Shown in pieces: positions 19,770 to 30,627 of a stretch of DNA of 64,000 bases. The DNA comes from Komagataeibacter sp. FNDCR2. Lineage in GTDB: Bacteria > Pseudomonadota > Alphaproteobacteria > Acetobacterales > Acetobacteraceae. The notes under the pieces were generated by a model. The model saw nothing but the letters and a program-made list of their open reading frames with translations. It was not told the origin of the DNA and searched no databases. The position numbers and the translations under genes are program-made. Position 1 is the first letter of the stretch; every line of letters starts with the position of its first letter. The DNA is taken from the NCBI RefSeq assembly GCF_021295395.1, contig NZ_JAIWOU010000001.1, positions 1,119,001 through 1,183,000 on the forward strand, written 5' to 3'.

Positions 19770-20447
19770 ATGTCGCTGATTCAATCCCTCAAGCTCGTCA
19801 TTGCCCCGCCGCACCCGGCCGCGCGCCCCTTTCTCCTGGCCTCCGGCGTGGGGGCCGTGGTCGGGCGGCTGCTGCCATTCAGGCTGACAAAATGGCTCGG
19901 CACGGCCAGTGGCCTGTTCTTCGGGTTCTGCCTGTATTTTTTCCGTGACCCCGAACGTGTCACGCCCGCAGCGCCCGATGTGGCCGTCGCCCCGGCGGAC
20001 GGGCATGTCGTCTCGATCCAGAAGATCGCGCCGCCACCGGAACTGGACATGGGCGATACCCCGGTGTGGCGTATCGCGACCTTCCTGTCCGTGCTGGACG
20101 TGCATGTGAACCGCATGCCGGTTGCCGGGACCGTCACACGGGTCGCCTACCATCCGGGGCAGTTCCTGAACGCCAGCCTCGACAAGGCATCGGAACTCAA
20201 TGAACGCAACGCCCTGCGCCTGAGCCTGAAGGACGGGCGGCAGGTGGCGGTCGTGCAGATCGCGGGGCTGATCGCACGGCGCATCCTGTGCGACGCGGAA
20301 GAAGGCATGCAGTATGAAACGGGCGAGCGTTTCGGCCTGATCCGTTTCGGCTCACGCACGGACCTGTATTTGCCCGCCGATGTCACCCCGCTGGTCGAGG
20401 TCGGGCAGACCATGATCGGTGGCGAAACCGTAATGGCGCGGCTCTGA
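19770..20447 (+). CDS. psd: Phosphatidylserine decarboxylase proenzyme (short type)
   Basis: This enzyme makes phosphatidylethanolamine from phosphatidylserine at the inner membrane. The 225-residue form belongs to the short class common in alphaproteobacteria. A hydrophobic hairpin at about residues 20-55 anchors it. Catalytic-region motifs are APADGHVVSI and FLSVLDVHVNRMPVAG. The self-cleavage site is the glycine-serine pair in IRFGSRTDL near the C-terminus; its serine becomes the pyruvoyl group. It lies six bases before pssA, which makes its substrate, so the pair forms a two-step operon. Confidence 0.95.
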   Translation: MSLIQSLKLVIAPPHPAARPFLLASGVGAVVGRLLPFRLTKWLGTASGLFFGFCLYFFRDPERVTPAAPDVAVAPADGHVVSIQKIAPPPELDMGDTPVWRIATFLSVLDVHVNRMPVAGTVTRVAYHPGQFLNASLDKASELNERNALRLSLKDGRQVAVVQIAGLIARRILCDAEEGMQYETGERFGLIRFGSRTDLYLPADVTPLVEVGQTMIGGETVMARL

Positions 20448-20453
20448 TCGGGC

Positions 20454-21317
20454 ATGGCCGTCCCTTCCCCCGGTTCCACGCGTCCCCCCCGCCGGTTGAA
20501 AAAGCGCCAGCGCCCCCGCGTGCGCGGCCTGTCCTTCAACCGCATGATCCCGAACCTCATGACCATGCTGGGCCTGTGCGCGGGCCTGACCGGCATGCGA
20601 TTCGGGCTGGAAGGGCGGTTTGGCAATGCTGCGGCCGCACTCCTGATCGCCGCGTGCATCGACGGGCTGGACGGCCGTATCGCGCGCCTGCTGCGCGGCA
20701 CCAGCCGGTTCGGGGCGGAGTTCGACAGCCTGTCGGACTTCCTGTGCTTCGGCGTTGCGCCCGCTTTCGTGCTGTACCTGTGGGCCCTGCATGAAGGGGG
20801 GCGGTTTGGCTACATTCCGTGCATCATGTTCACGGTGTGCATGGCGCTCCGCCTGGCGCGCTTCAACGCCAGCCTTGATGATGACGCGGACCAGCCCAAA
20901 TACGCCAGCAGCTTCTTTACCGGCGTTCCCGCCCCGGCCGGGGCCGGTCTCGCGCTGTTCCCGCTATTCCTGGGGCTGGAGGCGCAGCACCTGCACTGGG
21001 AGTGGCTGTACAACCTGACCCGCATGCCCATACTGCCCGCGCTGACACTGGGGGGCACGGCCTTCCTGCTCGTCTCCACGCTGCCGGTATGGTCGTTCAA
21101 GAACTTCAAGGTCCCCGCCCCCATGATCCTGCCCACCATGCTGGGCACGGGGGCCTATGCCGCCATTCTGGTGGCCGAACCCTGGGGCGCGCTGGCGGCG
21201 GCGGGCGTCATCTATATCCTGCTCCTGCCGATCAGCCGCATGAGCTTCCATCGCCTGCGCCGTGAGGCCGAGGCGCTGCAGGAAAGTGACGAGCCCACGC
21301 CCGCCACGCCAGGCTGA
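20454..21317 (+). CDS. pssA: CDP-diacylglycerol-serine O-phosphatidyltransferase
   Basis: PssA joins CDP-diacylglycerol and serine to form phosphatidylserine. The 287-residue membrane protein has a basic, proline-rich N-terminus and the CDP-alcohol phosphotransferase signature DGLDGRIAR followed by GAEFDSLSD (residues about 66-89), plus several membrane segments (about 96-115, 155-175, 195-215, 222-255). Together with psd directly upstream it makes phosphatidylethanolamine. It ends 14 bases from the convergent hydrogenase-like operon. Confidence 0.94.
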   Translation: MAVPSPGSTRPPRRLKKRQRPRVRGLSFNRMIPNLMTMLGLCAGLTGMRFGLEGRFGNAAAALLIAACIDGLDGRIARLLRGTSRFGAEFDSLSDFLCFGVAPAFVLYLWALHEGGRFGYIPCIMFTVCMALRLARFNASLDDDADQPKYASSFFTGVPAPAGAGLALFPLFLGLEAQHLHWEWLYNLTRMPILPALTLGGTAFLLVSTLPVWSFKNFKVPAPMILPTMLGTGAYAAILVAEPWGALAAAGVIYILLLPISRMSFHRLRREAEALQESDEPTPATPG

Positions 21318-21331
21318 ACGGGAACCACCCT

Positions 21332-21784
21332 CTAGGCGCTCTCATCGCCACCATCACGCGCCTGCCAGCCTGTCAGGGCCGCCAGTATGTCTTCCGGCGT
21401 GGGCGGGCAGCCCGGTAGCGAAAGGCTGGTGCGCGCATGGGCGCCCACCCCGCCCAGCGTGGCGTAATTGGGTGGGAACAGTCCGCCATCGACCGCGCAG
21501 TCCCCCACCACGGCAAGGACACGCGGCCCCGGCATGGCCTGCCACGCCATTTCCACCACGGGGGCCATCTCCACCGTCAGGCTGCCCGTCAGCAGCAGCA
21601 TTCCGGCCTGTCGGGGGGTAGCGACAAAGCGCACCGCACCGGAGGCCGCGACAAGTCCACGCCCGAGCGCACGCAGTTCAAGCGCGCAGCCCGTGCATCC
21701 ACCCGTTTCCACATGGAAAATGTCCAGCGGCGCCATACGGGGCAATGCCGCGCCGCGCCGCCGGAACAGATGCATATACGCCAT
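21332..21784 (-). CDS. NuoB/HyfI-like small subunit of a hydrogenase-related complex
   Basis: This 150-residue protein is a short NuoB/hydrogenase small subunit. All four cysteine ligands for the proximal [4Fe-4S] cluster are present in the hydrogenase-type spacing: C30 and C33 (GGCTGC), C96 (VVGDCAVDGG) and C126 (LPGCPPTPE). It would sit at the cytoplasmic face between an electron source and the large subunit. The ATG at 21784 is used; a GTG one codon earlier is possible. It is the last gene of the six-gene operon, ten bases after the large-subunit stop. The intact cluster site contrasts with the loss of the Ni-Fe site in its partner. Confidence 0.88.
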   Translation of the reverse strand: MAYMHLFRRRGAALPRMAPLDIFHVETGGCTGCALELRALGRGLVAASGAVRFVATPRQAGMLLLTGSLTVEMAPVVEMAWQAMPGPRVLAVVGDCAVDGGLFPPNYATLGGVGAHARTSLSLPGCPPTPEDILAALTGWQARDGGDESA

Positions 21785-21793
21785 CACCCGCCC

Positions 21794-23275
21794 CTACAGA
21801 TCCGCGCCCGCCGCCGATAGCCCGAGCGAGGTCAGGACCAGCGTGACATCGTCATACATCGCCCCGGACAGAATATCGGGCAACGCCTGTACGTGCGCAA
21901 GCGCGGGGTCGCCACACCACCATGCGGCAATACGCCCGCCATCCAGCCGCAGCCAGTGCCAGACCGGCCCATTCGGTCCTTCCGCACAGCCAAGACCTTC
22001 TCCCGCCCCGTAATCGGGCACGGGGGGAAACGGCGGCATCGGGGCACCACCTGACGCGGCCAGTATATGCGCGCTTTCCCCGATCTCATGCAGGCGAATG
22101 GCAAGGCGGCTGGCGACATCGCCGTCCGTCCGGACATGGTCCGCCAGACATTCCGGGCGGGCGGGGGGCATGCTCCGCCGCGCATCCGCCTCGATACCAC
22201 TGGCCCGCGCCACGCAGCCTGCGATGCCCCATCGGCGCGCGACGGGAGCGGCCAGAATTCCCCTGCCTGCCGCCCGCATGGCCAGTCCGCGCGGACGGTG
22301 GAAAAGGCGCGTCAGTTCCTCGCTCCCGTCATGCAGCGACTCCGCCAGTCCCGCCGCCAGCACCGGGTCATGCACCGCGCCCGGCGCAGGCGGCAGTACG
22401 TCGAACAGGAAGCGCCTGCCGCATAAATCACGACAGGCCTGCCGCACCTGCCCCAGCAGCGACGCGGCAAGGGTGGCAAAACGTGCATCGGCCCCTATAT
22501 CGGCAGCCTGCGTCAAAACCTCCAGATGGGAGGCGACGCGTTCCAGTTCGCTCAGGAACGTGGCCGTATTGCCTTGCCCCTCTGCCCTGTTTCCCACAGC
22601 CTGTGCCAGCGCCTGGGCGAAGGCGGACTGATGGGCGACACTTGCCGCCGCATCAATCCGGGCGACCAGTCGCGCGCCCTCCATCGGCGTGCGGCCCCGC
22701 ATACGTGCGCACAGGCCCCGATGGGCATAGCCCATACGGACCGAAACCGTTCCGATCCGCGCGCCCGGCAGGCCCAGCCGCAGATAAAGCGGGGCCTGAA
22801 ACCCGCCATCCGCCGGACCATGACCCAGCATGACGCCACCCGCCCCGCGCACAACCGCGCCATCCGCGAACTCCACCCCCTCCGGCGGGGTGGGAGCCGG
22901 GGGCGGGCGTTCGCGCAGCGGCCACGTAACCGGCCAGTGGCCCTGATCCAGCCAGGGCGCGCCACCCTGCGCGCCCATGGCTTCGATGCCCCACAAATCC
23001 CGGATAATGCGTTCATACGCGTCCGCCCCGGCCCGGACAGGCGACAGGGCCTGATAACGCCCCTCCGGCACGGTGACGCTGGCAATCAGCGGCCTGCCTC
23101 CCTCCATGAACAGGGCATGGACCTGCGCCCCGTCGGTCCACAGGCCAGACAGCGGCAGAGATGCATGGCGCAGCCCCTCCACCATGTCGCGCCATGAATC
23201 GGGTGTAAGCACGAACCGTTCAGCGCACGCGGTCCGTGCCCCTGCCCGGATAAGGGCGCATACCTCGCGCGTCAT
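21794..23275 (-). CDS. NuoCD/HyfG-like large subunit lacking Ni-Fe ligands (Ehr-type)
   Basis: This 493-residue protein is a NuoC-NuoD fusion, as in group 4 hydrogenases. The NuoC part is seen at YERIIRDLWGIEAMG (residues 87-101) and the NuoD part begins at GHGPADGGFQAP, with VRMGYAHRGL. In Ni-Fe enzymes the motifs RICGxCxxxH and DPCxxC carry the metal. Here they align as RIDAAASVAH (206-215) and SLGLSAAG (483-490), with all four cysteines replaced (D208, A211, S487, G490). It therefore cannot bind a Ni-Fe centre in the usual way. The ATG at 23275 forms an ATGA overlap with the preceding gene. A much longer upstream frame overlaps that gene and is rejected. Confidence 0.88.
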   Translation of the reverse strand: MTREVCALIRAGARTACAERFVLTPDSWRDMVEGLRHASLPLSGLWTDGAQVHALFMEGGRPLIASVTVPEGRYQALSPVRAGADAYERIIRDLWGIEAMGAQGGAPWLDQGHWPVTWPLRERPPPAPTPPEGVEFADGAVVRGAGGVMLGHGPADGGFQAPLYLRLGLPGARIGTVSVRMGYAHRGLCARMRGRTPMEGARLVARIDAAASVAHQSAFAQALAQAVGNRAEGQGNTATFLSELERVASHLEVLTQAADIGADARFATLAASLLGQVRQACRDLCGRRFLFDVLPPAPGAVHDPVLAAGLAESLHDGSEELTRLFHRPRGLAMRAAGRGILAAPVARRWGIAGCVARASGIEADARRSMPPARPECLADHVRTDGDVASRLAIRLHEIGESAHILAASGGAPMPPFPPVPDYGAGEGLGCAEGPNGPVWHWLRLDGGRIAAWWCGDPALAHVQALPDILSGAMYDDVTLVLTSLGLSAAGADL

Positions 23276-24336
23276 GGCTGGACCATGCCCCTGTACGCCA
23301 CGATGGCGAGCACCATGCAGCCAAGCGCCAGCAGCAGGCCCCCCTGCCCCCGCACCGTAACCTGAACCTGCCCGCCCCCGGCAAGGAACGGCCATAACGA
23401 AACGCCCGCCAGCAGCGCCACCGGAAGGGAAGCCCGCATTTCCGCCACCAGTACAAGCACCAGCGCCATACCGGGCAGGAAGGGGGGCCATGGCGTCACG
23501 CGCCCGCCATTTTGAGGGGCCTGCCCCACGGGGGGCGGACAGGCCAGCATGAGCAGGCAGGCGGCCAGGGGCAATGCGGCCTGACCCGCAGGCAGTCCCG
23601 CCGCCATAACAGCCCAGCCACTCCAGTTCAGGGAACGCGACGCCCCGCCGGGTCGTGGCGGCAGCGACCAGAGCAGGCAGACCCCGCCAAAAAATGTCAG
23701 CACCGGTGTAAGCTGGGGCCACGACCCGGCCGCGCGCGCAATAATCGGCAGCACCATGAGCCCGTTCATGTTCCCCTCCGGCTGACCCGCCGCCGGGGGG
23801 GACAGCAGCCCGCAGGCCATGAGCAGCCCCCCCACCAGCAGGACCGCCCCGGCCTGCCCCGGCATGGGACCCCACCCGGCCCGCAGCACGAACAGCCCGC
23901 CCTGTGCCAGGATCAGCCCGCCCAGTGTCGCGCGCAACAGCCGCCACCCGTCCCGACCCGGCCCACGCGGCCCCCATGCTCCCGCCAGCCGCACGACCAG
24001 ACTGATGCCGATAAACACTCCCAGCAGATCACAACGCCCCAGCGCCAGGGCAAGGGACGCATTGCCGGACAGGATGAAAGGCCGCAGCGCTTTCCACCCC
24101 GATCGGCCGCCACCCCCTCCACGGCATGTCTCCACGCACAGCGCCAGGGCGGGGCACAGCGCCATCAGCGCCTGCGCGGCATCCGCCACCGGAATATGCC
24201 CCGCCCCGCACAGCCCCAGCAGCACGAAGGCCAGCACACCGCGTGAGAGGGAAGATGCGCCGGTGGCCAGCAGGGCGGTAAGCGCCAGGACCATCCAGCC
24301 CGCCAGCAGGCTGACATAGAGCGGGAGCGACATCAT
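23272..24336 (-). CDS. Membrane subunit, HyfF/NuoN-like (reduced)
   Basis: This 354-residue protein is very hydrophobic, with about ten possible membrane segments rich in Leu, Ala, Gly and Met. Position between the HyfE-like and HyfG-like genes suggests the antiporter-like HyfF subunit. Members of that family usually exceed 480 residues, so this one is shortened. I cannot see the conserved lysine-bearing HALFK-type helix or other clear proton-channel motifs. Translation overlaps its neighbours at both ends (ATGA). The identity is therefore inferred mainly from gene order and topology. Confidence 0.66.
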   Translation of the reverse strand: MMSLPLYVSLLAGWMVLALTALLATGASSLSRGVLAFVLLGLCGAGHIPVADAAQALMALCPALALCVETCRGGGGGRSGWKALRPFILSGNASLALALGRCDLLGVFIGISLVVRLAGAWGPRGPGRDGWRLLRATLGGLILAQGGLFVLRAGWGPMPGQAGAVLLVGGLLMACGLLSPPAAGQPEGNMNGLMVLPIIARAAGSWPQLTPVLTFFGGVCLLWSLPPRPGGASRSLNWSGWAVMAAGLPAGQAALPLAACLLMLACPPPVGQAPQNGGRVTPWPPFLPGMALVLVLVAEMRASLPVALLAGVSLWPFLAGGGQVQVTVRGQGGLLLALGCMVLAIVAYRGMVQP

Positions 24337-24872
24337 ACGCGCCCGCTCCCGCCGCGCTGGACGGCGGCCATGAGCATGTTCAGCCCCACGACCGCCGCGA
24401 CCGCCTGCCCCATCACCAGCAGGCTACCTGCCCGCGCGCCCAGAAGCATCACACCATCCAGCCCATAGGCCAGCCCGGCGCAGAGCGCGACCGGGGCACG
24501 GGCAAGGCATGCCCCCCACACCCCGCACATGATGGCGGCAAGGCCAGCCAGCCCCGCAAGCCGGGCCGTCATGTCGGCCGGGCCATCCTGTACCATCACC
24601 TGCGCAAGCACCGCGACACACAGCAGCCCACCAGCGGGACGGACAGCCCCCCACGCGCGCCCATCCGCCGGAACCCGAGACATCTGCACCGCCAGCAGCC
24701 CGACCAGAACCGCCATGACCCCGGCCAGCACGCAGGGCACGACCCCCGGCCCCGCGTGGAAAAACCAGATGCACACGGCGGTCAGGACGGCATGCCAGAC
24801 CAGCCCCCCCATCGTTCCCCCCGACCCCGCGACCGACAGGATAACCAGAACGCCAAGCAGCAGTACAAGCAT
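24333..24872 (-). CDS. Membrane subunit, HyfE/NuoK-like
   Basis: This 179-residue hydrophobic protein has about six membrane segments. Its C-terminus (GLAYGLDGVMLLGARAGSLL) and position resemble HyfE of hydrogenase 4, whose C-terminal half is NuoK-like; E. coli HyfE is about 216 residues. The ATG at 24872 is two bases from the end of the HyfC-like gene. Longer in-frame extensions overlap that gene and read as non-hydrophobic sequence. The function, forming part of the ion-translocating arm, is inferred. Confidence 0.68.
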   Translation of the reverse strand: MLVLLLGVLVILSVAGSGGTMGGLVWHAVLTAVCIWFFHAGPGVVPCVLAGVMAVLVGLLAVQMSRVPADGRAWGAVRPAGGLLCVAVLAQVMVQDGPADMTARLAGLAGLAAIMCGVWGACLARAPVALCAGLAYGLDGVMLLGARAGSLLVMGQAVAAVVGLNMLMAAVQRGGSGRV

Positions 24873-24874
24873 GG

Positions 24875-25813
24875 TCAGCCCGCCCCCCGGCTTGCAAAAA
24901 GCAGCACCCCGGCCATGATGGCGCAGAGCAGCGCAAGCCCCGCCCGACCGGCTCCCCGCCACCGGCCGGGCAGGACAAGAACCCGCAGGCCGGCCACACA
25001 CCCGCAGGCCAACAGCATGTGGCCAAGCCATGAACCAACCGCCACCCCGACCGGCAGCAGCCCCCATGCCCGGGCCATGGACTCCGGTTCGACTATACTT
25101 TCCGGCCAGACCAGATCCCGCGCCAGCATCATCCACGCAACCGCCAGCAGATCGCGCGCGTACTGCGCCGCCGCGCGGTCGGGACCGGCCAGATCCTCCA
25201 CCATGGTTGAAAACAGGGGCGCGGATGTCGCCCCCTCATCCAGCCCGGCCAGAAGCAGCGCGCCCGCCACCAGCGCCAGCGGCACACGGATCATGTTCAT
25301 GTCCGCCACATGCGCCTGGCGCACCAGCCCCACCAGCGTACCCTCGGGCAGGCACATCCCCAGCACGGCGCAGGACAGCAGCAGCACTGGCTGGATCATG
25401 ACCCCGCCCACCATGGCACGCAGCCCCGCATGGCCCGGCCGGGCCAGACCCGCCGCAAGGGCCACGACCACCAGCGCCACGAACCCCGTTTCCAGCAGCC
25501 CGCCCACCGCCAGCAGGTCGGACAGATCCCCCCCCGGCATGCCAATGCAAAAGGAGGGCACAAGCAGCACCGCCCCCATTCCCGCCGCCAGCGCCAGCCA
25601 TGGGGCCACCGCCGTCACCCGCGCCCCGGCCGCCGAACGCACGCCAGCCTGCCGCCATGCATGCCGCAGGGCGCGCCACCGCGCCATAGGATCGGGAGGG
25701 CGTCGCGCGCCCTCCATGGTGGCGGCCATCCAGTCGAGCAGGGCCATCCATACCGGCGCCGTCGCCACGACCAGCGCCACATGGCAGATCGCCAGCACAA
25801 GCGATACCGTCAT
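24875..25813 (-). CDS. Membrane subunit, HyfC/NuoH-like
   Basis: This is a 312-residue protein with about eight membrane segments. It resembles NuoH/HyfC, the subunit that joins the peripheral arm to the ion channel. The segment RRPPDPMARWRALRHAW occupies the place of the conserved R-x-GP-x-x-QP-x-x-D loop, and GLDEGATSAPLFSTMVEDL with QYARDLLAVAW matches the acidic loop region that ends in EYSGRDLALIEWA in HyfC. The normal Glu-Tyr-Ser-Gly is changed to Gln-Tyr-Ala-Arg. It sits in the second position of the operon, six bases after the NuoL-like gene. Confidence 0.8.
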   Translation of the reverse strand: MTVSLVLAICHVALVVATAPVWMALLDWMAATMEGARRPPDPMARWRALRHAWRQAGVRSAAGARVTAVAPWLALAAGMGAVLLVPSFCIGMPGGDLSDLLAVGGLLETGFVALVVVALAAGLARPGHAGLRAMVGGVMIQPVLLLSCAVLGMCLPEGTLVGLVRQAHVADMNMIRVPLALVAGALLLAGLDEGATSAPLFSTMVEDLAGPDRAAAQYARDLLAVAWMMLARDLVWPESIVEPESMARAWGLLPVGVAVGSWLGHMLLACGCVAGLRVLVLPGRWRGAGRAGLALLCAIMAGVLLFASRGAG

Positions 25814-25819
25814 GCCCGC

Positions 25820-27544
25820 CTATCCATGCCACGCAATGAACATGAGCGCGCTCACACAGGCCACCATCACCGCCACCGGGGCGGAAACCGCATGCCCGCG
25901 CCATGCTTCCACCCCACACCGCACAAGGACGGACACGCCCCGCCGCCCGCGCCGCAACAGGCGCGCATAGCCCCGTACAAACCGCAGGCGAAGGGAAGCC
26001 GCCACCACCATATCAAGCACCATGCGTGGCGGATTTCCCGGCCCGACCTGTGTCAGCGGATCACCAAACACCATCCATGGCGGCACGGCAGGCGCGCCCT
26101 GCTGCCAACTGGTGACCTGGCGCGCGGGCCGGGGCCGCAGGACATGCCGCAACCCCGCCACCATTCCCCCCGCCCCAGCCACAAGCAGGCACAGCCGGGC
26201 GGGATGGAGGCTGGCCGCTCCATCGGGCGAAGCCAGCATGATGTTCCGGATCGCGGGCCAAAGCCCCCCCGCCATGCGCGGCCCGGTATTTTCCATAAGG
26301 CCCAGCCAGTATCCCGGCCAGATGGACACCAGCACGAAGGGCAGGCAGGCCAGCGCCACGCCCGCCATCTCACGCCCCTGCGGGTCACGCGCGCCCGCGC
26401 AGCGTGGCGTGCGTGGCCGCCCGCACAGCATGACGGCCACGACCCGCACAAGGGCCAGCATGCGGATCGCCCATCCCGCCCCCAGCGCCCCAAGGGCCAG
26501 CAGCAGCGGCAGGTCGCCCGCCAGTCCGCCCGCATGCGGCATGGCCGCCAGCAGGTGCGCCAGCATCCAGATAATGGAAAAACCCAGCAGCGGCGGCAGG
26601 CCGCTTTCCGCCAGCAGCCCGAGGGCGAAAACCCCGCACAGACGGGGCATGAGCATGCCAAGCCCCCCCAGGCGGCACAGCATGAGCGCGCCTGCCTCAC
26701 GCTCCATGACAGCCACGGCGCACGCCATGAACACCCAGACCAGCAACGACCCCGCGACCAGCATGAGCGTCCGGCTGGCGCATACGGCCATGGCGGGCAG
26801 GTCATCGGCCCGCGCCAGCACCATAAGCCCCGCAACCACCACCACCAGCGCCCCGGTACCTTCCATAAGCCCGCCCATGACCCTGCGGGCATCCATGGCG
26901 CACAGGGAACGCCACGAGGCCATTGCGTACAACACGCAGCCCGCCCCGATCAGGAGAGCACCCCAGCGGATGTCGATCCCCCGCCCATCCGCCAGCAGGT
27001 GCGTCCACAAGGCCATGCCCGCGATCAGCCCGGCAATATCACCCGTCCGGAACGGGCGCAGCCCGCGCGCGGCCACGCGCGGGGAAAGGGACAGCCCCAG
27101 CAGGCCGCGTGTCGCAACCCAGCACAGGCAGGGCAGCAGGTTCGCGCCCATGCCCGGGCTGGCGGGCGCGCCCGCCAGAAGCAGGAGGCCGATCATGTCG
27201 GATGCCTGCCGCGCGGGCCTGGCGTCCTCACGCGCCAGCAGCACCCACCCCGCCCCCATGCAGGACAGGACGCTCCCCCCCGTTACCGCAAGGGCCGCCC
27301 CGGCACAGGCCACGAGATCACGCCGGTCCGGAGCCGCAAGCCCCACCAGCCCCAGCGGCAGGAGCAGGGCCACACCCCCCGATGGTGCGAAAAAGTCCGG
27401 CCACCGCACCACGCCGCCCGGCAGGGTGCCCCCACACGACACGATCACCGCCAGAAGGCCGACAATCCCCCATCCCCCCCGGATACACACCACCTGCCGG
27501 GGCAGGCGGAGCGGAAGGGCGCAGGACAGCCCGACCAGCAGCAC
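25820..27544 (-). CDS. Membrane subunit, HyfB/NuoL-like antiporter-type protein
   Basis: This is the first gene of the hydrogenase-like operon, with about 574 residues and about 14 membrane segments. The family region is visible at REAGALMLCRLGGLGMLMPR, followed by LAESGLPPLLGF, matching the GGLGRRMP...ISGLPPLNGF stretch of HyfB/NuoL. Upstream, the usual lysine in the HALFK-type helix appears as arginine in ASRTLMLVAGS (my alignment by eye). The only standard start is GTG at 27544, without a Shine-Dalgarno sequence. The hydrophobic N-terminus continues in frame for eight more codons to an ATT that has AAGG at proper distance, so a rare ATT start is possible. Confidence 0.78.
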   Translation of the reverse strand: MLLVGLSCALPLRLPRQVVCIRGGWGIVGLLAVIVSCGGTLPGGVVRWPDFFAPSGGVALLLPLGLVGLAAPDRRDLVACAGAALAVTGGSVLSCMGAGWVLLAREDARPARQASDMIGLLLLAGAPASPGMGANLLPCLCWVATRGLLGLSLSPRVAARGLRPFRTGDIAGLIAGMALWTHLLADGRGIDIRWGALLIGAGCVLYAMASWRSLCAMDARRVMGGLMEGTGALVVVVAGLMVLARADDLPAMAVCASRTLMLVAGSLLVWVFMACAVAVMEREAGALMLCRLGGLGMLMPRLCGVFALGLLAESGLPPLLGFSIIWMLAHLLAAMPHAGGLAGDLPLLLALGALGAGWAIRMLALVRVVAVMLCGRPRTPRCAGARDPQGREMAGVALACLPFVLVSIWPGYWLGLMENTGPRMAGGLWPAIRNIMLASPDGAASLHPARLCLLVAGAGGMVAGLRHVLRPRPARQVTSWQQGAPAVPPWMVFGDPLTQVGPGNPPRMVLDMVVAASLRLRFVRGYARLLRRGRRGVSVLVRCGVEAWRGHAVSAPVAVMVACVSALMFIAWHG

Positions 27545-27606
27545 GGTAGCGACAAGGAGGACAGGAATGACGGTGGCCCTTCAATCGCCGGGGGAAACCG
27601 GACGGG

Positions 27607-28458
27607 TCAGATCATGGCCAGCGGCTCCTTGCGGCGCGGCGGCGCGATGGCTCCATCAATCTCCGCCAGATCATCACGCGTCAAGGTGATCTCCTGTGCC
27701 GCGAAGTTTTCGCGCTGATGTTTCGGGCTGCCCGCCTTGGGAATCGCCAGCACATCGGGTTGCCGCAGCACCCATGCAAGCGCCACCTGCGCCGGGGTGG
27801 CCGGGCCGAGCGATGTCGTATGCCGCTGCGCGACGCGCGCCAGAACCGGCGCGCGCAACAGCTCGCCCCCCTGCCCCAGCGGGGAATAGGCCATGCTCAC
27901 CACGCCCGCCGCGCGGTCATGGTCCAGCAGGTCGAACTCCACACCCCGGTAATCGAGACTGTACAGCACCTGGTTGGCGGCGCATGGCGTGGGCGAGCGG
28001 ATGCTTTCCACCGCGCGCATGCCGTCCGTATCGAAATTGGAAACGCCCCAGCTCCGGATCAGCCCGGCATCCACCAGATCCGCGAATCCGGCGATGGTTT
28101 CCTCCAGCGGGAAACTGCCTTCCCAATGCAGCAGGTACAGATCGAGCCAATCGGTGCCCAGCCGTTTCAGCGAGGCCTCGCATGCCCTGCGCACCCCGCT
28201 GTGAGACGCGTTGGAGGGCAGGACCTTGCTGACAAGGAACACGTCATCGCGCAGGTCCCTGATCGCCTCGCCCACCAGTTTCTCGGACCGGCCGGAGCCG
28301 TACATTTCCGCCGTGTCCACCACGCGGATACCGGCCTCGAGCCCCGCGCGGATGCTTGTGATCTCATCAGCGCGGCGGCTGTCGTCATCCCCCATGTTCC
28401 ATGTGCCCATGCCCAGGGCGGGCACCTGTGTACCATTGGGGAAAATAACCGTCTTCAT
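27607..28458 (-). CDS. Aldo/keto reductase
   Basis: This is a 283-residue NADPH-dependent oxidoreductase of the AKR superfamily (TIM barrel). The catalytic tetrad is visible: aspartate and tyrosine in VVDTAEMYGSG, lysine in FLVSKVLPS and histidine in YLLHWEG. Later motifs are WGVSNFDTDGM and IPKAGSPKH, the latter for cofactor binding. The ATG at 28458 has AAAGGCAGG at good spacing; a TTG six bases earlier is too close to it. The substrate is unknown. The hydrogenase-like operon begins 62 bases downstream on the same strand, so read-through transcription from here is possible. Confidence 0.92.
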   Translation of the reverse strand: MKTVIFPNGTQVPALGMGTWNMGDDDSRRADEITSIRAGLEAGIRVVDTAEMYGSGRSEKLVGEAIRDLRDDVFLVSKVLPSNASHSGVRRACEASLKRLGTDWLDLYLLHWEGSFPLEETIAGFADLVDAGLIRSWGVSNFDTDGMRAVESIRSPTPCAANQVLYSLDYRGVEFDLLDHDRAAGVVSMAYSPLGQGGELLRAPVLARVAQRHTTSLGPATPAQVALAWVLRQPDVLAIPKAGSPKHQRENFAAQEITLTRDDLAEIDGAIAPPRRKEPLAMI

Positions 28459-28516
28459 CAGCAAACCTGCCTTTCGTCCATGCCGCGCGGCCTGTGGCCG
28501 GCCCGCGCGGGGGTGA

Positions 28517-29005: not shown

Positions 29006-30475
29006 TCACCCCTCGTAATACGTGCCGACCATGCGGTCGAGCAGCCGCACGCCAAAGCCCGTCGCCCCCTTGGGTGCGTGCGATGTCGCCTTGGTGGTGA
29101 ACGCCACCCCCGCGATGTCCAGATGCGCCCATGGCACCTCGTTCACGAAGCATTCAAGGAACTTCGCCGCCGTGATCGACCCGCCGGGACGCCCGCCGAT
29201 GTTCTTGAGATCTGCAATATCGGAGCGCAGGCGTTCAAGGTAGGCGGCGTCCAGCGGCATGCGCCACAGCTTCTCCCCCGTCGCCTCGCCCGTGCCGGAC
29301 AGGTTGGCGGCCAGTTCATCACTGTTCGAGAACAGGCCCGCGCGCTCATGGCCAAGGCCGACCACGATCGCCCCCGTCAGCGTGGCGAGATCGACCATGA
29401 GACGCGGGCTGAAACGGTCCTGCGTGTACCACAGCACATCCGCCAGCACGAGCCGGCCTTCCGCATCGGTATTGAGCACTTCCACCGTCTGGCCCGCGGC
29501 GGTGCGCACCACATCGCCCGGGCGCTGGGCATTGCCGGACAGCATGTTCTCCACCAGCCCCACCACGCCCACGGCGTTGACCTTCGCCTTGCGTCCGGCC
29601 AGCGCCGCCATGGTGCCGACCACGGCGGCCGCACCCGCCATGTCGGTCTTCATTTCCTCCATGCCGGCTGCGGGCTTAATCGAGATGCCGCCCGAATCAA
29701 ACGTCACGCCCTTGCCCACGAACGCGACCGGGGCGTCCCCTTCCGCGCCGCCATTCCAGCGCATGATGACCGTGCGCGGCGGGGCGTCGCTGCCCTGCGC
29801 CACGCCCAGCAGCGCGCCGAAACCCAGTTCCTCCATGGCGGCGCGGTCCAGCACCTCGACCGTCACACCCAGATCGCGCAGGGCGAGGATACGCTGCTCG
29901 AATTCGGGCGGGCGGAGTTTGTTGGCCGGTTCGGACACCAGATCGCGGCACAGGTAGATACCCCGCGCCACCGCGCCCAGCGGCGTCCATGCCGCCCGCG
30001 CCGCCGCCGGATCGGTGGTGGCGACGCCCAGCGCCGTGAGTCGCTCCGGCTCCCCCTTGCGCGGCTCGGTGCGATACGAATCGAAGCGGTACGCCCCCAG
30101 CACCGCCCCCAGCGCCACATGGGCGGCCAGTTCCGGCGCAAGGGCGTCGGCCACGATCACACCCGTGGTCCCCCCGGCGGCCAGCGCGCGCGCCGCCGCC
30201 ACGCCCGCCTTTTCAGCCACGGTGGCGTCAAGCGCCTGCGCATCGCCCAGCCCCACCAGGACCACGCGGTCATACCCCGCGCCCGGCGCCAGGACGACGC
30301 AGGTCTTCGACGCCTCGAAATCGAATCTGGCGGCCTTCGCCGCACGCTCCAGCGCCCCGTCCAGCGTGGTGTTCACGGTGGCGAACAGGCCGGCGGGGGA
30401 TGTGCCGGATGTGGCAAGAATGGCGATCGCGCCGCCGTGGGGCGCAGTGGCGTCGGAAAAGGCGATGTCGAGCAT
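29006..30475 (-). CDS. pepA: Leucyl aminopeptidase
   Basis: PepA is a hexameric cytoplasmic metallopeptidase (family M17) that removes N-terminal residues from peptides. In some bacteria it also binds DNA. The 489-residue protein contains the metal-site motifs GKGVTFDSGGISIKP and KTDMAGAAAV, and the signature NTDAEGRLVLADVL. The ATG at 30475 is used; a GTG three codons upstream is an alternative. It forms a unit with holC downstream. The gene is divergent from cysQ across 150 bases that must carry both promoters; no clear consensus elements stand out there. Confidence 0.95.
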   Translation of the reverse strand: MLDIAFSDATAPHGGAIAILATSGTSPAGLFATVNTTLDGALERAAKAARFDFEASKTCVVLAPGAGYDRVVLVGLGDAQALDATVAEKAGVAAARALAAGGTTGVIVADALAPELAAHVALGAVLGAYRFDSYRTEPRKGEPERLTALGVATTDPAAARAAWTPLGAVARGIYLCRDLVSEPANKLRPPEFEQRILALRDLGVTVEVLDRAAMEELGFGALLGVAQGSDAPPRTVIMRWNGGAEGDAPVAFVGKGVTFDSGGISIKPAAGMEEMKTDMAGAAAVVGTMAALAGRKAKVNAVGVVGLVENMLSGNAQRPGDVVRTAAGQTVEVLNTDAEGRLVLADVLWYTQDRFSPRLMVDLATLTGAIVVGLGHERAGLFSNSDELAANLSGTGEATGEKLWRMPLDAAYLERLRSDIADLKNIGGRPGGSITAAKFLECFVNEVPWAHLDIAGVAFTTKATSHAPKGATGFGVRLLDRMVGTYYEG

Positions 30476-30627
30476 ATGGATCACGGGGCTCCGCTACGAA
30501 GGTTTTGGACGGACAGGATAAATTCCCTTGCCAGCCAGGCATGGCCATGACCGGAATATCCGTATCCGGAGCCATCATGACCGATAAGGGCATGACGGCG
30601 CGGCATGAGTAAGCTAATGCGAACAGC

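Follow-up and report, generated by a model that had tools for sequence, protein, structure and literature searches.

What remains of a hydrogenase-like complex when both its catalytic metal site and its known proton-path residues are missing? This question is raised by six genes on the minus strand of a 64,000-nucleotide stretch of DNA (hereafter the window; contig NZ_JAIWOU010000001.1, positions 1,119,001 to 1,183,000) from Komagataeibacter sp. FNDCR2, an acetic acid bacterium of the family Acetobacteraceae. A sequence-only reading had described these genes as a six-gene complex I/hydrogenase 4-like operon of the Ehr (energy-converting hydrogenase-related) type, with the gene order hyfBCEFGI, no Ni-Fe site and a subunit set that seemed smaller than usual, with no NuoI-type subunit. 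Our examination of the open reading frames confirmed the observation: six intact, nearly touching genes occupy exactly positions 21332-27544 in this order. The subunits and the adjacent gene are as follows.

25820..27544 (minus strand), B subunit, HyfB/antiporter-like, 574 aa (GTG start); at the sites of NuoM E144/K234/K265/E407 it has gap, L or G, I or G, and I, depending on the alignment.
24875..25813 (minus strand), C subunit, HyfC/NuoH-like, 312 aa; the NuoH E157 position is Q, and the NuoH D213 position is gap or S, its loop being largely missing.
24333..24872 (minus strand), E subunit, HyfE-like, 179 aa; the ENG motif reads LDG.
23272..24336 (minus strand), F subunit, HyfF/antiporter-like, shortened to 354 aa; the sites NuoM E144/K234/E407 are G/A/L.
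21794..23275 (minus strand), G subunit, HyfG/NuoCD-like, 493 aa; DAAA and SAAG stand in place of the two Ni-Fe CxxC motifs, and H185, R186, R206, H215, E243, R246, R288, D292, R390, E426 and E432 are conserved.
21332..21787 (minus strand), I subunit, NuoB/HyfI-like, 151 aa; the four [4Fe-4S] ligands C31, C34, C97 and C127 are kept (30, 33, 96 and 126 when counted from the ATG one codon later).
27607..28464 (minus strand), aldo/keto reductase-like gene, named by sequence resemblance alone, 62 nt upstream of the operon; a possible seventh gene of the transcription unit, not needed elsewhere.

With the start codons chosen, the spacings B-C-E-F-G-I are 6, 2, -1, -4 and 9 nt, and none of the genes is interrupted. 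A Pfam search recognised I (PF01058, 73 bits, 2.1e-20) and G (PF00346, 62 bits) above cut-off, while B fell below it (PF00361, 19.2 against 21.5 bits), C gave only a chance-level hit and E and F gave none. The naming of B, C, E and F therefore rests on gene order and on profile-profile comparisons (hhalign), which matched the subunits one to one with pump-bearing counterparts: B 3.6e-35, C 1.4e-27, E 2e-9, F 5.4e-10, G 3e-101 and I 1e-46. Of 30 off-diagonal pairs, only B against the F profile of the pump-bearing set (N_B against P_F, 2e-4) rose above noise, as expected of two antiporter-like subunits. An AF2 model of B (pLDDT 76) had E. coli HycC as its best PDB hit (7z0s_C, E 1.6e-10), and the best PDB hit of G was HycE (7z0s_E, 1.1e-17), whereas the model of F was of low confidence, too poor to show its fold, and had no significant PDB hit. 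All six genes, each checked against the subunit profiles, were found in 85 of 121 family clusters (some of which helped to build the profiles), so the order is not due to chance. A first extraction had counted six genes in 88 of the 121, the other clusters being cut by contig ends, by relocated genes or by the length windows applied.

Is this still a hydrogenase? The two CxxC motifs of the group 4 [NiFe] large subunit are absent from the window's G, which keeps zero of the four cysteines, and no Ni-Fe CxxC pair was found in any of the 121 clusters. The sequence-only reading had named hyp genes and a canonical Ni-Fe large subunit that pairs with these membrane subunits elsewhere in the genome, or frameshifts in the operon, as grounds for its rejection; we found no HypA, HypD or [NiFe] large-subunit family in the window's genome and no frameshift. 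In contrast, the proximal [4Fe-4S] ligands CxxC...C...C of the small subunit are present. A search for a formate dehydrogenase alpha subunit found none over the TIGR01591 cut-off (666 bits) in 18 of 18 genomes and no match at all in 4 of them; the best match in the window's genome was 220 bits, while five other genomes have unidentified matches of 533-537 bits.

The interpretation of the sequence-only reading is only partly supported. The operon is an Ehr-type six-gene set by ancestry, with group 4/complex I-type large and small subunits and antiporter-like membrane subunits in one operon. The suggestion that a six-gene set without NuoI is unusually small is not supported. The EHR of Mycobacterium tuberculosis (Rv0082-Rv0087, hyc operon) has six genes of the same kinds (gene list in PMC6901956), is called EHR and not a functional hydrogenase, and its function is undetermined (PMC6728331); Rv0082 is the NuoB-like gene of that operon, in which a NuoI is not known to be present. 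In addition, 18 of 20 alphaproteobacterial clusters from outside the family show the same six genes on one strand. Of the other two (clusters are designated here by L numbers), L177 has its I gene apart on the other strand, and in L176 the contig ends before B. What had been missed is that the membrane arm has lost its proton-path residues, so that "energy-converting" probably no longer describes it.

How far does this loss extend? At the sequence level, all nine residues aligned to pump sites in the window's B, C and F subunits are lost, as is the ENG motif of E. Across 97 family clusters with subunit B found, the pump sites of B are nearly bimodal: all four are kept in 59, none in 36, and two clusters lie in between. 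We divided the clusters into a pump class and a pump-less class by B, or by F where B was not found, so that the point of the comparison is the near absence of intermediates. Counting only subunits confirmed by profile, B keeps 4 of 4 sites in 59 of 59 pump-class clusters, and 0 of 4 in 36 and 1 of 4 in 1 of 37 pump-less ones. In the pump class F keeps 3 of 3 in 63 of 66, C 2 of 2 in 60 of 60 and E 2 of 2 in 63 of 63, whereas in the pump-less class F keeps 0 of 3 in 31 of 40, C 0 of 2 in 34 of 39 and E 0 of 2 in 23 of 36. The four cysteines of I are kept in 63 of 63 pump-class and 39 of 41 pump-less clusters. These counts replace those from extraction by position and hydropathy, which had misassigned 6 of 653 proteins (among them C taken for F in L091 and L131, and E or C entries of L129, L140 and L148) and left 11 unconfirmed. 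Nine further B genes were all 0 of 4. L126 and L137, in which G and I lie apart from the membrane genes, have B, C, E and F elsewhere in their genomes, also pump-less. Six clusters were unclassed and one (L046) was intermediate; L042, placed in the pump-less class by script, is uncertain, as no B or C was found on its contig and its F keeps two of three residues. Of 101 further places selected from the family-wide listing, 13 plus-strand ones with under 5 kb upstream and the last 8 of the other 88 are not included in these counts. The twenty clusters from outside the family keep the pump sites, but they were 20 of 25 places at E < 1e-120 chosen by similarity to a pump-bearing G, so divergent pump-less clusters outside the family would have been missed.

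Was the pump lost once or several times? A tree of 124 G sequences requires 3 changes over the classed rows, but forcing all 15 pump-less rows of a 40-row subset into one clade was not rejected (p-AU 0.261). When the long-branched main pump-less clade was removed and G and I were joined, forcing the second and third pump-less groups together was rejected (p-AU 0.0075), although the groups were named after seeing the tree and group three was itself not one clade there. At least two losses are thus supported, whether or not the main clade represents a further one.

Pump-less operons are under purifying selection. The dN/dS ratio is 0.04-0.18 in two small-genome genera and 0.12-0.33 for the pair L035/L036 of the window's genus, compared with 0.05-0.20 for neighbouring genes. 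In the second and third pump-less groups, however, E and F evolve at dN/dS 0.5-0.7, close to relaxation. The operons persist in small genomes without a detected complex I, and 11 of 33 genomes, from 5 genera, have this G as their only 49-kDa homologue. In the main pump-less clade, conserved residues concentrate in G and I; at 80% conservation the membrane subunits keep no charged residue in B, two Asp in C (D99 and D233) and one Arg each in E (R173) and F (R134). Counted without alignment, charged residues per 100 hydrophobic-segment positions fall clearly in E (5.7 to 3.3) and F (5.4 to 3.5) but little in B (4.5 to 4.1) and C (5.8 to 4.9). In the window, the operon lies between the aldo/keto reductase-like gene and pssA. 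Analysis of the flanks, with antisense shadows of the operon's own genes set aside, showed that pssA/psd and pepA are shared by the main pump-less clade; these look like inherited synteny rather than a functional link, and the link with the aldo/keto reductase is suggestive but absent from several small genomes.

Taken system by system, the pump-bearing Ehr complexes of Alphaproteobacteria (for example L058 and L160-L175) have the same six genes in the same order, lack the same Ni-Fe ligands and keep the I cysteines, with one exception (L171), but they keep all tested pump residues in B, C, E and F. The Ehr complexes of Margulisbacteria and Saganbacteria (PMC6349859) and of comammox Nitrospira (PMC10284858) are likewise group 4-like and lack the Ni-Fe ligands. 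For the former, charge translocation through antiporter-like subunits is suspected and formate dehydrogenase partners are proposed, while the function of the latter is described as unknown; we found no report of pump-residue loss in either study. E. coli hydrogenase 4 and formate hydrogenlyase share subunit homology with the present complex, but have Ni-Fe CxxC pairs, ferredoxin-like subunits, maturation genes and a formate dehydrogenase. Respiratory complex I has homologous NuoB, NuoCD, NuoH and antiporter-like subunits, but the operon encodes no NADH module or NuoI and keeps neither the key Lys/Glu of the antiporter-like subunits, nor the Glu/Asp of NuoH, nor the quinone-site stretch. Literature searches of limited extent revealed no study of Ehr in acetic acid bacteria or of pump-less Ehr.

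The reading that we favour, although we hold it about as likely as not, is that the operon encodes a membrane-bound Ehr complex of the complex I/group 4 hydrogenase superfamily that has stopped being an ion pump; we therefore regard it as a pump-less derivative by descent and not as a functional energy-converting member. The analysis itself establishes the six intact subunits, the absence of Ni-Fe ligands, the loss of all tested proton-path residues in orthologues of pump-bearing subunits, the antiporter fold with which B is still modelled, the retention of the four [4Fe-4S] ligands of I and of a set of charged residues in G, and purifying selection. It is by inference only that electrons would pass between an unidentified cytoplasmic donor or acceptor and the single [4Fe-4S] cluster of I, with chemistry (or hand-over to a quinone) in the former Ni-Fe/quinone cavity of G and without coupled proton translocation, in either direction, the soluble G-I iron-sulfur module doing the work and the antiporter-like subunits acting as an anchor or scaffold; activity, cofactors and subunit assembly are likewise putative. 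Several observations do not fit easily. One genus (L056, L118) has lost three of the four cluster cysteines with open frames while its C keeps both tested acids, and L128 keeps three of four cysteines. The EPGHFRF stretch of pump-bearing G, in the place of the quinone-site histidine loop of complex I, is not kept, and one of two genomes with a reduced operon (L131) lacks an I gene nearby.

The main rival, possible but less likely, is a non-redox role, in which the cluster of I would be structural or redox-sensing and the complex would regulate or organise something at the membrane without turnover. The absence of both the Ni-Fe ligands and the quinone-site stretch is consistent with this view, as is the genus that keeps open frames of all subunits after losing three of four cluster cysteines (dN/dS 0.13-0.39). 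Against it, the cluster ligands are kept in nearly all pump-less clusters, and the many conserved charged residues of G look like a binding or catalytic pocket.

It is unlikely that the complex still converts energy by pumping through residues outside the aligned positions. The predicted antiporter fold of B, the conserved charged residues of C, E and F in the main clade and the barely reduced charge of the hydrophobic segments of B would allow it. However, B and F of the main clade have no conserved Lys or Glu, the letters at the pump sites vary between genera, and F is shortened from a median of 482 to 405 aa (a few misassigned rows included) and to 354 aa here.

A relic drifting to loss is also unlikely, and we reject decay for the main clade, while relaxed selection remains possible in the two other groups. 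In the window's genus the operon evolves faster than neighbouring genes (57-73% identity against 82-94% for the window against L034 and L035), and 34 of 200 family genomes, draft genomes included, lack a G match at E 1e-20 by hand count. On the other hand, open frames and shared neighbours are found in distant genera, including genomes of about 2 Mb, two of these genera showing the low dN/dS given above. Finally, a cryptic formate hydrogenlyase or [NiFe] hydrogenase, suggested by the overall homology to HycE and HyfG, is very unlikely given the missing ligands and the absence of HypA, HypD and a [NiFe] large subunit from the genome; the formate dehydrogenase search weakens it further but is not clean.

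Members of this superfamily are thought of as ion pumps driven by redox chemistry. If our reading, which we put no higher than even, is correct, Acetobacteraceae hold a pump-less branch of the complex I superfamily, that is, complexes which at least twice gave up proton pumping after an ancestor had given up Ni-Fe chemistry, and which were kept as membrane-anchored single-cluster redox devices, even in organisms without complex I. Such complexes would be natural pump-off variants for asking what the antiporter-like subunits do besides pump. They also offer a tractable way to find out what Ehr complexes do, since acetic acid bacteria include genetically usable strains and several genera here show no complex I that would complicate assays. 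A lineage that keeps the six-subunit assembly under selection after losing both the catalytic metal site and the proton path would separate redox function, assembly and pumping in nature.

Examination of the six minus-strand ORFs at 21332-27544 confirmed that the operon recognised in the sequence-only reading is real, the frames being open and nearly touching. Searches against Pfam and NCBIfam recognised the soluble pair, I as NuoB-like and G as NuoD-like, whereas B gave only a sub-threshold antiporter-like match and C, E and F had no credible match in either library. The operon and its surroundings can be described as follows:

19770-21317, psd/pssA, convergent.
21332-27544, minus strand, the six-gene operon.
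25310-27718, plus strand, an 802-aa antisense ORF over B and C, most likely a high-GC shadow frame.
27607-28464, minus strand, an aldo/keto reductase-like gene 62 nt upstream of B.
29006-30484, pepA.

The psd/pssA genes and pepA flank the operon and are syntenic in the main pump-less clade; pssA was seen beside 25 pump-less clusters and beside cluster L128, and beside no pump-bearing cluster, although many of the latter have short flanks. A homologue of the aldo/keto reductase-like gene lies 17-171 nt upstream of B in 16 of 121 family clusters, 13 of them pump-less and 3 pump-bearing (L048, L100 and L114). The genome of the window (G000, 3.29 Mb in 5 contigs) also carries two further full-length 49-kDa homologues, apparently belonging to two complex I loci. 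In a scan that detects close relatives only, the closest named relatives of G were those of Komagataeibacter melaceti (71%), K. rhaeticus (60%) and K. saccharivorans (59%), so that the host is that genus or a close sibling.

A G homologue at E <= 1e-20 occurs in 166 of 200 genomes of the family, as counted by hand, and in 195 of 200 at E <= 0.001, a threshold that also includes complex I. Among 289 genomes of the class, at least four of which belong to the family, 23 genomes from outside the family have a match at E < 1e-120 to a pump-bearing G (also counted by hand), weaker matches being mostly complex I. The operon is thus common in this family and patchy elsewhere in the class.

No CxxC pair of the Ni-Fe site is kept in G in any of the 121 family clusters, and two clusters keep a single cysteine of the four. 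HypA, HypD and the [NiFe] large-subunit family were not found in the genome of the window, while the same searches gave matches in 7, 4 and 5 of 14 control genomes, respectively.

Each membrane subunit was aligned with the E. coli MG1655 Hyf, Hyc and Nuo proteins, and the columns of the pump residues NuoM E144, K234, K265 and E407, of NuoH E157 and D213, and of the ENG motif of HyfE were read. Two kinds of clusters can be distinguished. Counting only subunits confirmed by profile, in the pump class B keeps four of four residues in 59 of 59 clusters, F three of three in 63 of 66, C two of two in 60 of 60 and E two of two in 63 of 63. In the pump-less class, B keeps none in 36 and one in 1 of 37, F none in 31 of 40 (one in 8, two in 1), C none in 34 of 39 (one in 3, two in 2) and E none in 23 of 36 (one in 9, two in 4). 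As the classes were set by B, or by F where B was not found, the B figures show bimodality and are no independent test, whereas C and E are independent of the definition. Nine further B genes, read subsequently, keep none. Cluster L046 is intermediate (B EKKQ, F EKL, E motif lost) and lies beside the second pump-less group, and may represent a snapshot of pump loss. Cluster L042 carries E-F-G-I without any B or C match on 5.6 kb of upstream contig, and its F has T at the key Lys site. In the window the sites read gap-L-I-I (B), G-A-L (F), Q-gap (C) and L-D (E); a smaller alignment gave gap-G-G-I for B, so that the exact partner residues are uncertain, but neither reading has a Lys or Glu.

The four cluster cysteines of I are kept in 63 of 63 pump-class and in 39 of 41 pump-less clusters. 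The two exceptions, L056 and L118, belong to one genus (g100); both are pump-less by B and keep one of the four cysteines, while their frames are open and both tested acids of C are kept. Of three unclassed clusters that later proved to be pump-less, L126 and L137 keep all four cysteines and L128 keeps three. Outside the family, the pump-bearing Ehr cluster L171 has an I subunit that reads CCCA at the cluster ligands.

The soundness of the alignments was examined in several ways. Profile-profile comparison of up to 29 pump-less rows against 30 pump-bearing rows matched each subunit to its own counterpart, with E-values from 2e-9 to 3e-101, and the alignments show that SKAGL and SEW in B, TKAGL in F, and EPALLL and the VDNPATHLEL loop in C are replaced or missing in the pump-less consensus. 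A structural model of the window B (pLDDT 76.3) has E. coli HycC as its best solved match, and a profile of pump-less B finds the antiporter subunit 6cfw_H of an archaeal membrane-bound hydrogenase (6e-11). The model of F (pLDDT 68.5) gave no significant match. An alignment-free count of K, E, D and H in hydrophobic segments falls from the pump to the pump-less class clearly in E and F, but little in B and C.

Of 20 clusters fetched from outside the family, 20 keep the F, C and E sites, and 19 of the 19 with B on the contig keep all four B sites; these clusters were, however, chosen by similarity to a pump-bearing G. A tree of G places the pump-less rows in a large clade with the window (34 pump-less rows and L128) and in two smaller groups nested among pump-bearing rows, and 3 changes are needed over the classed rows. 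Topology tests were mixed: a single clade for all pump-less rows was not rejected in a 40-row subset (p-AU 0.261), whereas a single clade for groups two and three was rejected (p-AU 0.0075), these groups having been named after the tree was seen. At least two losses are therefore supported.

Selection was estimated as dN/dS by a simple counting method. In the genus of the window, the pair L035/L036 gave 0.12-0.33 for the six genes and 0.05-0.20 for neighbouring control genes, and the window against L034 gave 0.18-0.38, with controls at 0.06-0.20. In two genera with genomes of 1.9-2.6 Mb, values were 0.04-0.18 (L135/L142, L054/L142 without I, and L066/L133). In L054, a 958-aa ORF resembling a TonB-dependent receptor, as judged by eye, and an opposite-strand gene sit between G and I. 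Pump-bearing pairs (L058/L059, L127/L136, L098/L101, L087/L092 and L103/L119) gave 0.01-0.29. In groups two and three, E and F reached 0.5-0.7; I (0.16) and G (0.31) were lower in L124/L130, but I was 0.53 and G 0.40 in L129/L148. The main clade is thus constrained and the others are partly relaxed.

Ehr complexes have been described as lacking the Ni-Fe ligands and are suspected of charge translocation because of their antiporter-like subunits (PMC6349859). In comammox Nitrospira their function is called unknown (PMC10284858), and the hyc operon of M. tuberculosis is called EHR with function undetermined (PMC6728331; gene list in PMC6901956). No paper listed in our literature searches dealt with a pump-less Ehr.

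Of 33 genomes searched with PF00346, 11 genomes from five genera have the Ehr G as their only match, and hence no detected complex I. In genus g33 the I gene lies about 4 kb from G in three of three genomes, and in genome G037 a second PF01058 gene lies on another contig. In genus g4 the operon is split between two distant places, the G-I pair (L126/L137) and the B-C-E-F set (L192/L193), the latter being pump-less; the F match in genome G102 was reported with one stop codon inside. In two genomes of genus g62 the pump-less operon has B, C and G with no room for E and F; I follows in L091 but was not found beside G in L131. Genome G062 also holds a complete pump-bearing operon (L060), and genome G137 has C and F of one on another contig. 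These losses and moves point to G as the constant part and to the membrane arm as the variable one. Conservation agrees, as G has 29 invariant positions among 15 rows, several of them next to the former CxxC motifs, while at 80% conservation B keeps no charged residue, C keeps two Asp, and E and F keep one Arg each.

The mechanism that follows is that of a soluble Fe-S module on a membrane anchor. Whereas the kept and lost residues are observed in the sequences, the transfer of electrons, to or from partners yet to be identified, is inferred from the kept cluster ligands, and the absence of pumping is inferred from the lost residues.
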